Assembly (NCBI RefSeq): GCF_027497355.1
Contig: NZ_CP114909.1
Span: forward strand, 4,731,001 to 4,795,000
Origin: Micromonospora sp. WMMA1947
GTDB taxonomy: Bacteria; Actinomycetota; Actinomycetes; Mycobacteriales; Micromonosporaceae
Reading direction: 5' to 3'
Length of the DNA: 64,000 nucleotides
The notes under the pieces were generated by a model. The model was not told the origin of the DNA and made no database searches. It saw only the letters and a list, made by a program, of their open reading frames with translations. The translations under genes and the position numbers were made by a program. This document shows, one piece after another, positions 1 to 17,864 of this stretch (positions are counted from its first letter, which is position 1; every line of letters starts with the position of its first letter).

Positions 1-713
1 CCGGCGCCGGAACCGTGGAGTTCCTGGTCGACGAGGCCGAGCGCTGCCACTTCCTGGAGATCAACTGCCGGATCCAGGTGGAACACCCGGTCACCGAGAT
101 GATCTCCGGCATCGACCTCGTGCAGGAACAGCTGCACGTGGCGTTCGGCACGCCGCTGCGGCTGCGCCAGTCCGACGTACGCCTGGACGGCGTGGCGATC
201 GAGTGCCGGGTCAACGTGGAGGACCCGGACCGCGACTTCGCGCCCGCACCGGGCCGGCTGGACCGGTTCCGGCCGCCGGGTGGCCCGTTCACCCGGGTCG
301 ACACCCACGGCCACGTCGGCTACCTGGTCAGCCCGCACTACGACTCGCTGCTGGCGAAGGTGGCCGTGTGGGCGCCGGACCGGGACGCCGCGCTGGACCG
401 GCTCGACCGGGCGCTGGCCGAGTTCGACGTGGCCGGTCCCGGTGTGCGTACCACCATCCCGTTCGCCCGGCGGGTGCTGCGCGATCCCGCCTTCCGCGCC
501 GCCCGGCACACCACCGCCCTGGTGGAACGCCTGCTCGCCCCGCCCGCCGACGACACCCCGCCGACCAGTGACGCCCTGCCGACCGGCGACGCCCCACCGG
601 CCGAGGCGGCGCGGGCCGTCGTGCCCGATCCGCGCGCCGCTGCCGAGCCGGACAGCCGTACCCCCGTCAGCGCCGTGCCCGCCGCCGGCCCGACCACCTG
701 GAGGAACCGATGA
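1..713 (+). CDS. Biotin carboxylase, C-terminal part (5' end outside window)
   Basis: The window opens inside this gene; the frame is open from base 3 to the stop at 711-713, giving about 236 C-terminal residues. The text has the biotin carboxylase core [10 protein letters not shown] and [16 protein letters not shown] (canonical [16 protein letters not shown]), followed by the C-terminal cap. No biotin-carrier EAMKM motif is seen, so the carrier must be a separate protein. The last ~60 residues are a Pro/Ala-rich tail. The stop overlaps the next start (ATGA). Acetyl-CoA carboxylase subunits inside type II polyketide clusters usually raise malonyl-CoA supply for the KS/CLF pair; that role is inferred from position. 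A biotin carboxylase of another acyl-CoA carboxylase is the alternative. Confidence 0.88.
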
Positions 714-1417
714 CCGTCGCCCCCGACCGCCCGCTCGCCCGCGAGATCACCGACATCCTGGTCACGCACTGCGGCCTGGACCCGGACGCCGCCGCCGGCG
801 CACCCGCCGCGAGCCTGGAGGAACTGGGCATGGACTCGCTGGCGCTGCTCGAGCTGTCCGCGGTGGTCGCCGACAGGTGGCGGGTGAAGATCCCCGAACA
901 GGCCGGGCAGCTCAGCATCGCCGGCGTCGCCGACCTGGTGGCCCGCAAGGCGGACCCGCCCGGGCACACCGAGAACGCCGTGGAGATCGCCGCGCCGCTG
1001 CCGCTGGTCTGGGAGATCACCAACGACGTGGCCCGGTGGCCGGAGCTGTTCACCGAGTACGCGGTGGCGGAGATCCTGCACCGCGACGGCGACACGGTGC
1101 GTTTCCGGCTCACCATGCATCCCGACGAGAACGGCGTGTCGTGGAGCTGGGTCAGCGAACGCACCGCCGACCCGGCCACCCGGGAGGTGCACGCCCGGCG
1201 CGTCGAGACCGGCCCGTTCGAGTACATGCGCATCCACTGGCGCTACGACGAGACGCCCGGCGGCACCCGGATGACGTGGACGCAGGACTTCGCGATGAAG
1301 CCCGACGCACCGGTCGACAACGCCGGCATGACCAACCGGATCAACACCAACAGCACGATCCAGCTCGCCGTGATCAAGGAGAAGATCGAGCGGGCACACG
1401 CGGGAGGCGCGCGATGA
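710..1417 (+). CDS. Acyl carrier protein fused to WhiE/TcmN-type aromatase/cyclase
   Basis: 235 aa in two domains. Residues ~1-80 form an ACP with the phosphopantetheine site [10 protein letters not shown] (Ser43). Residues ~86-235 form an SRPBCC (START-like) polyketide aromatase/cyclase; text such as [17 protein letters not shown] and [13 protein letters not shown] is typical of the monodomain ARO/CYC of spore-pigment (whiE) clusters. The ACP should hold the poly-beta-ketone while the cyclase domain closes and aromatises the first ring. In whiE-like clusters these are two adjacent genes, so the fusion is notable. Start ATG 710 overlaps the biotin carboxylase stop and the stop overlaps the cupin start, indicating translational coupling. 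Domain identity is seen in sequence; the ring-closure pattern is not predictable. Confidence 0.9.
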
Positions 1418-1824
1418 CCGACACCACCACCGCCCGGGTCTCCGTCCACGACGTACCCGCCGACCGCCGCCGCGGCGGGGAACTGCGGGTGCTGCTCGGC
1501 CCGAAGACTGTGGGCAGCACCTCCGGATTCATGGGCGTCGCCACGCTCGCGCCGGGGGAGCGGATCGCCGAGCACTACCACCCGTACAGCGAGGAGTTCC
1601 TCTACGTCGCCCGCGGCGCGATCACCGTCGACCTGGACGACGTGCCGGTCCCGGTCGCCGCCGGGGAGGCGCTCTACGTGCCCAAGGACGTGCGGCACCG
1701 GCTGCGCAACACCGGCGACGAGCCCGCCGAGGTGGTGTTCCACCTCGGACCGCTCGCCCCGCGCCCGGAACTCGGCCACGTGGACACCGAGAGCGCCGCA
1801 CCGCCGCCACGGGAGCCGTCGTGA
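1414..1824 (+). CDS. Cupin-fold polyketide cyclase-associated protein (WhiE ORFII / CurC type)
   Basis: 136 aa single-domain cupin. The first cupin motif is visible as [21 protein letters not shown], with two His and one Glu of the G(X)5HXH(X)3,4E(X)6G pattern; the second motif is [12 protein letters not shown]. Small cupins of this type lie directly upstream of the KS gene in spore-pigment clusters, where they are thought to help cyclisation or ring oxidation; their reaction is not firmly established. The gene overlaps its neighbours by 4 bp on both sides, and the order cupin-KS-CLF is conserved in those clusters. The last ~20 residues are a Pro-rich tail. Confidence 0.85.
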
Positions 1825-16511: not shown

Positions 16512-16514
16512 ACG

Positions 16515-17864
16515 ATGGACCCGAACTACACGTGGCCGCCGCTCGGCCAGGCGTGGACCGACCTGCCCGAGTCCACCCGTACCGCGATGGTGACCACCGG
16601 CGCCGCGGCGTGGGAGAAGATCTTCCACGGCCGGGCCACGTACAACAAGCAGTGGCGGCTGGCCCGCCCGCCCGTGTTCACCGCCGACGCGTTCCGCGAG
16701 CTGAACGAGGTGTGCGACCGTATCGCCCAGCTCATCCTGGAGGCCTGCCGGCGTCGCGCCCGTACCGCCGGTGAGCTGCGCCTGCTGCTCGACGTGCCGG
16801 ACGGCGAGACCCGGCTGCTCGACCCGGACGAGGAACTGCACGAAGGGCTGCTCGCCGCGTACCGGCCGGACGTGCTGTTCTCCGGCGGCGTGCCGTGCAT
16901 CGTGGAGTACAACATCGACAGCAGCCTCGGCGGCGGCTTCGACGCCGACACCGTCATCCAGCGGTACGCCGAGCTGTACGGCACGCACGGCCTGCTCGAC
17001 GGCGCGCGGCCCGCGCCGTCCCTGCTGGAGCAGCGGTTCGTGGCCATCCGGGACACGCTCGGCCTGGCCGACGGCGCCCGGGTGGCGCTGCTGATGGACT
17101 TCGAGGCCGACTATCCGGGGCTGGACGACCCGGAGACGTTCATCCGGATCCTGTCCCCGCTGATCGACCAGGCCCGCCCGTTCGGCATCGACCTGGTCAT
17201 CGCCCCGGTCGCCACCGCAGCCCTCGACGAGCAGAACCGGCTGGTCGTCGGCGGGGCCCCGGTGGACGCCCTGTTCCGGCTGTTCGTGCCCAACCGCGTC
17301 ACGCCCAGCCCCGGCCTGGACGCGGTGGCCGGCGCGCTCGCCGCCGGCACGCTCCCGATGTTCGTCAGCAGCGCCGCCTGGCTGCTCAGCAACAAGCTGA
17401 ACTACGCCTGGCTCTGGGCCGACCTGGACCTGCTGGCGGAGGACGACCGGTCGCTGATCCGCCGGTACGTGCCGCACACCGTCGCGCTCACCGCCGACCA
17501 GCTCGACCGGGCGCTCGCCGAACAGGCCGACCTGGTCGCCAAGCCGGCCGGCGGCTCGGCCGGGCACGGGGTGCTGATCGGCCGGGAGATGACAGCTGTG
17601 GCGTGGGCGGACGGGGTACGCGCGGCCATCGCCGAGGGCGGCAACATCCTGCAGCGCTACCACGAGGCGGATCGGGTGGCGATGGACTTCGTGCAGATCG
17701 AGACCGGTGAGACGGTCACCGCCGACGTCCCGTACAGCCTCGCCCCGTACCTGTTCGACCGCACCGAATCGGGCGCGCTGGCGCGAGTCGGCTACCCGGG
17801 TTGCGACGAGGTCCTCAACCTGGCGAGAGGCGTCCTCCTGACCGGCATCCTCCTGACCGACTGA
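16515..17864 (+). CDS. ATP-grasp ligase (glutathionylspermidine-synthase/glutathione-synthetase-like)
   Basis: 449 aa. The central segment CIVEYNIDSSLGGGFD and the later LVAKPAGGSAGHGVLIG loop with a Lys, then EGGNILQRYHEADRV, fit an ATP-grasp fold that joins a carboxylate to an amine via acyl phosphate. Starts 3 bp after E1 beta; last gene of the operon. No NRPS condensation domain exists in the window, so this is the best candidate for amide-bond formation, for example to hydroxyphenylglycine made by HmaS/HmO/HpgT. Substrates are unknown and the family placement is by motif only. Confidence 0.72.
   Translation: MDPNYTWPPLGQAWTDLPESTRTAMVTTGAAAWEKIFHGRATYNKQWRLARPPVFTADAFRELNEVCDRIAQLILEACRRRARTAGELRLLLDVPDGETRLLDPDEELHEGLLAAYRPDVLFSGGVPCIVEYNIDSSLGGGFDADTVIQRYAELYGTHGLLDGARPAPSLLEQRFVAIRDTLGLADGARVALLMDFEADYPGLDDPETFIRILSPLIDQARPFGIDLVIAPVATAALDEQNRLVVGGAPVDALFRLFVPNRVTPSPGLDAVAGALAAGTLPMFVSSAAWLLSNKLNYAWLWADLDLLAEDDRSLIRRYVPHTVALTADQLDRALAEQADLVAKPAGGSAGHGVLIGREMTAVAWADGVRAAIAEGGNILQRYHEADRVAMDFVQIETGETVTADVPYSLAPYLFDRTESGALARVGYPGCDEVLNLARGVLLTGILLTD

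Follow-up and report, generated by a model that had tools for sequence, protein, structure and literature searches.

Gene content of the locus

The stretch analysed here (the window) is 64,000 nucleotides long, bases 4731001-4795000 of the single-contig 6.31 Mb genome of Micromonospora sp. WMMA1947, and it holds two neighbouring sets of biosynthetic genes: block 1, a pigment-type type II polyketide synthase (PKS), and block 2 (5073-29008), with ligases, acyl carrier proteins (ACPs), ketosynthases (KSs) and a 4-hydroxymandelate-synthase-like gene (HmaS). The gene list is based on codon-usage gene calls and Pfam/NCBIfam scans. An initial annotation had read positions 1-17864 as a single stretch uniting both sets. 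Its gene list and order are borne out by the gene calls and scans, with ACP2 lacking a Pfam match and the ATP-grasp ligase matching below cut-off, and no ketoreductase (KR), dehydratase (DH), acyltransferase or condensation domain matched in the 19 genes scanned, as it had stated. Most of the content of that stretch stands, but a reverse-strand GNAT gene was missed, block 1 starts upstream of the window and block 2 runs to 29008.

1..713, + strand: block 1 biotin carboxylase, 3' part (Pfam Biotin_carb_C, 121 bits; the 5' part lies upstream of the window, L009)
710..1417, + strand: block 1 ACP fused to a polyketide aromatase/cyclase (PP-binding and Polyketide_cyc)
1414..1824, + strand: block 1 cupin (Cupin_2, 78 bits)
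1821..3092, + strand: block 1 KS alpha (KSa), Cys-His-His (C-H-H) triad intact (Pfam/NCBIfam and residue comparison)
3089..4333, + strand: block 1 chain length factor (CLF), active-site Cys and both His replaced (Pfam and residue comparison)
4337..4774, - strand: GNAT acetyltransferase between the blocks (Acetyltransf_1)
5073..6428, + strand: AMP1, acyl-ACP-ligase-like, in the AvaA1/CmaA1 position (AMP-binding and AMP-binding_C; order compared with Table 1 of PMC10777205, excerpt)
6609..6872, + strand: ACP1, conserved Ser (PP-binding; Ser motif in 22 loci)
6872..7117, + strand: ACP2, divergent, conserved Ser (no Pfam match; S-M/L-E motif in 22 loci)
7110..8240, + strand: KS2, Cys and second His kept, HGTGT His changed to Asn (Pfam/NCBIfam, residue comparison, tree)
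8237..8845, + strand: KSN, short CLF/CYF-like protein, presumed partner of KS2 (NF058659, 31 bits, cut-off 80; alignment)
8842..10461, + strand: AMP2, ANL enzyme of the AvaA6/CmaA6/Tri17 diazotase clade (NF058622, 511 bits, cut-off 975; PDB 8ztz, 417 bits; Tri17 9bq0, 330 bits)
10458..11720, + strand: KS3, C-H-H intact (Pfam and residue comparison)
11781..12857, + strand: HmaS, 4-hydroxymandelate-synthase-like (PDB 2r5v and 1t47 comparison; GNIKALY motif)
12854..13777, + strand: PhyH-type Fe/2-oxoglutarate oxygenase, HxD...H kept (Pfam and motif check)
13780..14577, + strand: DUF3050 protein, heme-oxygenase-like fold, HamA-like, accessory (Pfam, 326 bits; Foldseek 9vwb HamA)
14574..15545, + strand: E1 alpha (E1a), thiamine diphosphate motif GDGAVNEG (Pfam and motif check)
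15546..16511, + strand: E1 beta (E1b) (Pfam)
16515..17864, + strand: ATP-grasp ligase, predicted glutathione-synthetase fold (Pfam match below cut-off; AlphaFold2 (AF2) pLDDT 86; Foldseek 3kal/8fbz, E 3e-15 to 5e-15)
18135..18803, - strand: first GDSL hydrolase (Pfam; downstream survey)
19930..21150, - strand: MFS transporter (domain scan; downstream survey)
21147..22709, - strand: AMP3, third acyl-CoA/ACP ligase (domain scan; downstream survey)
22995..24305, + strand: second GDSL hydrolase, GDSL2 (domain scan; downstream survey)
24373..25596, + strand: cytochrome P450 (domain scan; downstream survey)
25593..26567, + strand: alpha/beta hydrolase, LipP1 family (NF058653, 359 bits, cut-off 350)
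26551..27663, + strand: HmO-like 4-hydroxymandelate oxidase (PDB 5zzp)
27665..29008, + strand: HpgT-like aminotransferase (Aminotran_1_2; at least 14 of the 120 homologues listed are named (S)-3,5-dihydroxyphenylglycine transaminase)

Block 1 comprises window positions 1-4333 and genes 3.4-5.0 kb upstream of the window. From 3.4 kb upstream, Pfam matches identify a polyketide cyclase and the acetyl-CoA carboxylase genes (carboxyltransferase, biotin carboxyl carrier protein and biotin carboxylase), and further out, up to 5.0 kb from the window, lie a second cyclase and a divergent BTAD (SARP-type) regulator. The WhiE-type set of KS, CLF, cupin, ACP, aromatase and polyketide cyclase is thus present together, and KSa has the His of HGTGT in 19/19. 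Block 1 resembles the WhiE-type spore pigment clusters in its cupin, KS, CLF, ACP-aromatase and two polyketide cyclases and differs from them in that the ACP is fused to the aromatase and the cluster has its own acetyl-CoA carboxylase genes. Published excerpts report whiE genes in all micromonosporae tested except M. cremea (PMC5765111) and a type II PKS, presumed to be the source of the black spore pigment, in every Salinispora arenicola strain of one study (PMC12838356). On balance, we propose that block 1 makes the aromatic, spore-pigment-type polyketide of the genus.

Distribution of the two blocks

The presence of the blocks was scored in 37 same-genus genomes and 24 genomes of other families (our handles are G for genomes and L for loci), with the ACP-aromatase fusion as the marker of block 1 and the ATP-grasp ligase and KS3 (KS3 at ≥79% identity) as those of block 2. 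The block 1 marker is present in 36/37 same-genus genomes, the two block 2 markers occur in an identical set of 23/37, and 13/37 have the block 1 marker without either block 2 marker; neither marker was found in G010, a fragmented genome. Twelve of the 14 block-2-negative genomes were examined around block 1, and no block-2 core gene lies beside it except weak E1 matches (33-41%) in five block-1-only loci, two of which were checked and represent a different E1 pair, resembling (85-88%) the one at window 47764. In G032 the HAD and YjbR genes follow CLF, giving the picture of an empty site. In the window these genes (18858-19879) are local ones: loci lacking block 2 also carry YjbR, and in one case HAD, close to block 1. 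In the loci of G092 and G050, which belong to two other families, the block-2 core is found with no pigment KS/CLF. The ATP-grasp gene is found in 0/24 other-family genomes, among them G050, which has the rest of the block-2 core. When 397 genomes from across the order were sampled, 37 of the 38 strong full-length ATP-grasp matches are same-genus and the remaining one is G092 (44%), and the 25 named loci matched by ATP-grasp (77-97% identical) are all Micromonospora.

The downstream half of block 2 was surveyed by reading 20 block-2-positive same-genus loci for 18-20 kb (matches ≥50% identity, >40% coverage), with 12 block-1-only loci, 6.7-20 kb long, for comparison. The MFS, third ligase, GDSL2, alpha/beta hydrolase and HmO-like genes are present in 20/20 and the HpgT-like, P450 and first GDSL genes in 19/20 each, while the block-1-only loci show, of all these, HmO alone. 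G092 keeps the GDSL, MFS, third ligase, GDSL2, P450 (a short match), hydrolase, HmO and HpgT genes near its block 2, and in G050 HmO, HpgT and the hydrolase lie directly beside AMP1. Gene order kept across wide divergence, together with recurrence of the core in two other families, is more than chance. G050 (L148-L123) and G092 (L075) also share, near block 2 and its E1a/b, a sub-cluster of a condensation domain, ketoacyl-ACP synthase III, tRNA-synthetase-like protein, ACP, phosphopantetheinyl transferase, glycosyltransferase and ABC transporter (Pfam in G050; the ABC transporter by eye).

With block 1 alone in 13/37 genomes and the block-2 core without pigment genes in G092 and G050, one obligate pathway is not supported, and the union put forward in the initial annotation is weakened. 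Its content is confirmed, the adjacency of the blocks is real and not obligate, and the cluster is longer than first read. We lean towards two separate clusters side by side, in which block 2 would make a different, probably exported metabolite from the prephenate/4-hydroxyphenylpyruvate branch.

A proposed pathway for block 2

The first six genes of block 2 follow the order of the ava and cma clusters, namely acyl-ACP ligase, ACP, ACP, KS, short CLF-like protein and diazotase-clade AMP enzyme (A1-A6 in Table 1 of PMC10777205, an excerpt whose list is taken here as gene order). Block 2 thus resembles these highly reducing type II PKS systems for avenalumic and p-coumaric acid in its ligase-ACP-ACP-KS-CLF-diazotase order and its AvaA6-like AMP2, but its KS2 is without the HGTGT His, HmaS/HmO/HpgT, an extra KS3, E1 and ATP-grasp are added, and no A7 or nitrite genes were recognised in it. 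The first five cassette genes, from ligase to short CLF, also occur in G770 and G739 at 41-57% identity, next to chorismate-binding/GATase, AurF and SDR genes (Pfam) in G739 and a dehydratase-like gene in G770, from which we infer an azoxymycin-like setting; no hydroxyphenylglycine (Hpg) genes were seen in the 14 kb read at these cassettes. In a tree whose program warns of long branches, KS2 groups with the G770/G739 KSs (100/100), apart from two AmcF-context KSs. Unlike KS2, the KSs of these aminobenzoate-type cassettes carry the His.

The residue comparison covered 22 loci, 20 of them same-genus (this genome and G251 included) plus G092 and G050. In all 22 the HGTGT His of KS2 is Asn, with the Cys and second His kept, while KS3 keeps C-H-H in 22/22; the His is retained in 2/2 cassette relatives and in the two AmcF-context KSs. 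Type I PKS ketosynthases that lost this His are non-elongating and are termed KS0 (PMC4661987, excerpt). KS2 has the sequence features of a KS0 as defined from type I PKS, Cys kept and HGTGT His lost, in all 22 loci, which suggests that KS2/KSN is a non-elongating KS/CLF pair. Since KS2 lost the His while KS3 keeps C-H-H, KS3 is likely to elongate the chain, which KS2/KSN would pass along. If non-elongating, block-2 KS2 would be, to our knowledge, the first KS0 known in a type II system. Relatives of these genes occur elsewhere: G012 has an AMP2 homologue (59%) outside block 2 at C1:2331981 (L127) and a KS3 homologue (62%) 22 kb on at C1:2355305, perhaps a related second locus, and KS3 and HmO relatives are present in G044, from another family. 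A tRNA-Ala called by ARAGORN at 11633-11725, within KS3 and on the strand opposite to it, is taken as a false positive.

Three genes of block 2 likely complete a hydroxyphenylglycine route. HmaS is nearer 2r5v (308.9 bits), which we take to be the vancomycin-group HmaS, than 1t47 (240.6 bits), presumably the 4-hydroxyphenylpyruvate dioxygenase (HPPD) of Streptomyces avermitilis, and it has the motif GNIKALYEA where 2r5v has SNIKALYEA and 1t47 has GNFKALFEA. Its score exceeds the cut-off of the HPPD model as well, and on the weight that we assume for the differing residue in this motif the comparison favours HmaS over HPPD activity. The HmO-like FMN enzyme is nearest 4-hydroxymandelate oxidase (5zzp, 389 bits), and of the other homologues listed for the HpgT-like protein some are called simply aminotransferase and some GntR regulator. 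The HmO- and HpgT-like genes lie ~14-16 kb downstream of HmaS, and the homologues of all three are found together in one conserved locus.

We now put forward a pathway whose steps all rest on family membership and active-site residues. HmaS would give 4-hydroxymandelate, HmO would oxidize this to 4-hydroxyphenylglyoxylate, and HpgT would aminate the latter to 4-hydroxyphenylglycine. AMP1 would load an aryl acid of the prephenate/4-hydroxyphenylpyruvate branch on one ACP, KS3 would extend it with malonyl-ACP, and the reducing partners (KR/DH) would, by analogy, be lent by the fatty acid synthase. KS2/KSN would then pass the acyl chain on without elongation, as a KS0 does. E1a/E1b, with no E2 gene among the block-2 cluster genes scanned, may decarboxylate a 2-oxo acid as an acyl source. 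The glutathione-synthetase fold of the ATP-grasp model would fit amide formation, most likely to hydroxyphenylglycine (a PADLOC scan of this protein gave no match). PhyH, the P450 and the accessory DUF3050 protein could carry out oxidations, and the MFS protein would export the product, for which our best guess is an aryl-polyketide amide of hydroxyphenylglycine.

Several observations weigh against this reading of two clusters and of the block-2 product. HpgT has 3360 matches at E 1e-60, so that its substrate is not fixed by sequence. HmO is present in 32/37 same-genus genomes, including 10/14 block-2-negative ones, and in 5/12 block-1-only loci, so that it is not tied to block 2; it may there be a relic of loss or have a separate role. 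The five loci with an HmO-like gene near block 1 without block 2 are L065, L067, L068, L069 and L072. The borrowing of KR/DH is an analogy, and amide formation may not be shared by every block 2, because ATP-grasp is not found in G050 and DUF3050 is found neither in the G092 genome nor in the G050 locus. In each of the 19 same-genus loci that resolve them the blocks are neighbours, and their pairwise protein identities correlate at 0.87 (171 pairs, calculated without a housekeeping control); a single pathway would show this too. There are also local gaps in block 2: HmaS and most of PhyH are absent in G002 (L038), DUF3050 is absent from the G022 locus (L028) and KSN has no good match in G011 (L034), and in the KS3 matches of both G022 and G013 the genome search shows a single in-frame TGA each.

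Alternative readings and the S. tropica pks3 cluster

The boldest lead is that the block-2 product bears a nitrogen-nitrogen (N-N) or nitrogen-oxygen function, with AMP2 as an ATP-dependent diazotase or nitrosylase and DUF3050 in an N-oxygenating or N-N-related role, which we regard as possible but unlikely. AMP2 is nearest AvaA6 among models, with the next generic one at 150 bits, and its nearest solved structures are 8ztz, Tri17 (9BQ0/8TF7; PMC11705231) and 9xb8 (279 bits), other ligases scoring ≤100. It nevertheless lies far under the AvaA6 cut-off and is no AvaA6 equivalog by that measure; the cut-off is passed by none of 394 genomes of the class, among which AMP2 of the window scored highest. 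The AlphaFold2 model of the DUF3050 protein (pLDDT 79) has HamA as its nearest structure (36% identity, Foldseek), and the protein is predicted to combine the DUF3050 domain with the HamA fold. HamA comes from the fragin/valdiazen diazeniumdiolate cluster, but excerpts report it as non-essential for the hydroxylamine intermediates (PMC11659414) and an mgoB mutant as still making mangotoxin, at a lower level (PMC3298696); a review of heme-oxygenase-like enzymes does not mention DUF3050, MgoB or PvfA. DUF3050 is, moreover, accessory in block 2: besides G022, G092 and G050 it is missing from three named loci, and a fourth, L094, is cut short at this place. Behind an AMP2 homologue in G739 come an NAD_binding_9 gene and a PcaB/CreD-type lyase, the neighbours that a diazotase using nitrite should have, yet no nitrite-forming pair is recognised in block 2, the top-scoring PcaB-type lyase in the genome (174 bits; no direct CreD/CreE model was used) lies in another cluster, and PF01959, the 3-amino-4-hydroxybenzoic acid synthase family, is absent from the genome.

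A second DUF3050 gene, 69% identical, also counts in favour of the N-N function. It lies at 4.280-4.320 Mb of the same genome (L174-L175) in a hydrazino-type cassette with a 4Fe-4S ferredoxin, a 629-aa domainless protein, a glutamine synthetase-like protein, an amidase, a lyase and a GNAT protein (by eye), ~20 kb from another KS/CLF pair, and G251 has a like set. The cassette looks like a diazobenzofluorene-type cluster. The paralogue was considered as KinJ and rejected, as papers and gene order point to the 629-aa protein beside the ferredoxin. The fullest version of the N-N idea, in which block 2 makes an Hpg-derived aryl polyketide amide with an N-N or N-oxygenated group, a C-N-H KS/CLF acts as non-elongating acyl carrier and AMP2 and the HamA-like DUF3050 protein set the nitrogen function, seems to us improbable.

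It is likewise doubtful that there is one hybrid pathway, in which block 2 would couple the block-1 aromatic polyketide with an aryl amino acid. The initial annotation had named blocks that always lie far apart in homologous genomes as contrary to their union, and this is not the case: they lie ≤4.5 kb apart in 19/19 same-genus loci long enough to show both (this window and 18 others; four further block-2-positive loci are cut by contig ends), and their identities co-vary. The region furthermore appears, by locus position and not gene by gene, to be the S. tropica orphan cluster pks3 (in G251 both blocks are at 2.79-2.81 Mb), which is annotated as one cluster and for which an excerpt lists a KS and two ligases, 18/25 proteins detected, and a spore pigment as suggested, not confirmed, product (PMC7888443). 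Shared descent by itself gives co-varying identity, however, so the correlation speaks for co-descent and not for one pathway, and the genomes with block 1 alone, the two loci in other families without pigment genes and the reverse-strand GNAT gene between the blocks argue against a hybrid.

That KS2/KSN act like the cispentacin AmcF-AmcG pair (KS-CYF), using malonate and a 2-oxo acid to form a cyclopentane ring, is very unlikely. Block 2 does share a KS of ~370 aa and a short KS-like partner with that system, KSN being short like AmcG, and KS2 matches the AmcF model (179 bits) and KSN the AmcG model (31 bits), but both scores are below cut-off (325 and 80), KS2 stands apart from the AmcF-context KSs in the tree with its long-branch warnings, and those KSs keep the active-site His that KS2 lost; the cispentacin-like reading of the NCBIfam matches was set aside on the cut-offs and the tree. 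That block 2 is decaying and non-functional is the least credible of all, since against the local gaps, the two KS3 matches with a TGA and the absence from 14/37 same-genus genomes stand 0 internal stops in 275 block-2 matches from 22 loci, active-site motifs kept in nearly all loci (the shared KS2 change excepted) and the detected pks3 proteins.

Further along the window, at 35834-46043, WGR/DUF4132, AAA_5, DUF5682, VWA CoxE-like and 672-aa proteins are encoded in one run.

We retain two adjacent clusters as the preferred reading. The initial annotation had called the gene set unusual, and we agree: in the literature searched, mostly open-access papers, no product is described for the set and block 2 is not described as a pathway. 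The published pks3 spans 23.3 kb, as opposed to a block 2 that reaches HpgT, and so seems to leave out the HmO-HpgT side. The two-cluster reading redraws the borders of a cluster that, in a group studied in depth, seems to be catalogued as a spore pigment, and it indicates a second, unrecognised pathway in 23/37 of the same-genus genomes sampled. If KS2/KSN is truly non-elongating, block 2 would offer a natural test of the role of the HGTGT histidine in type II systems.

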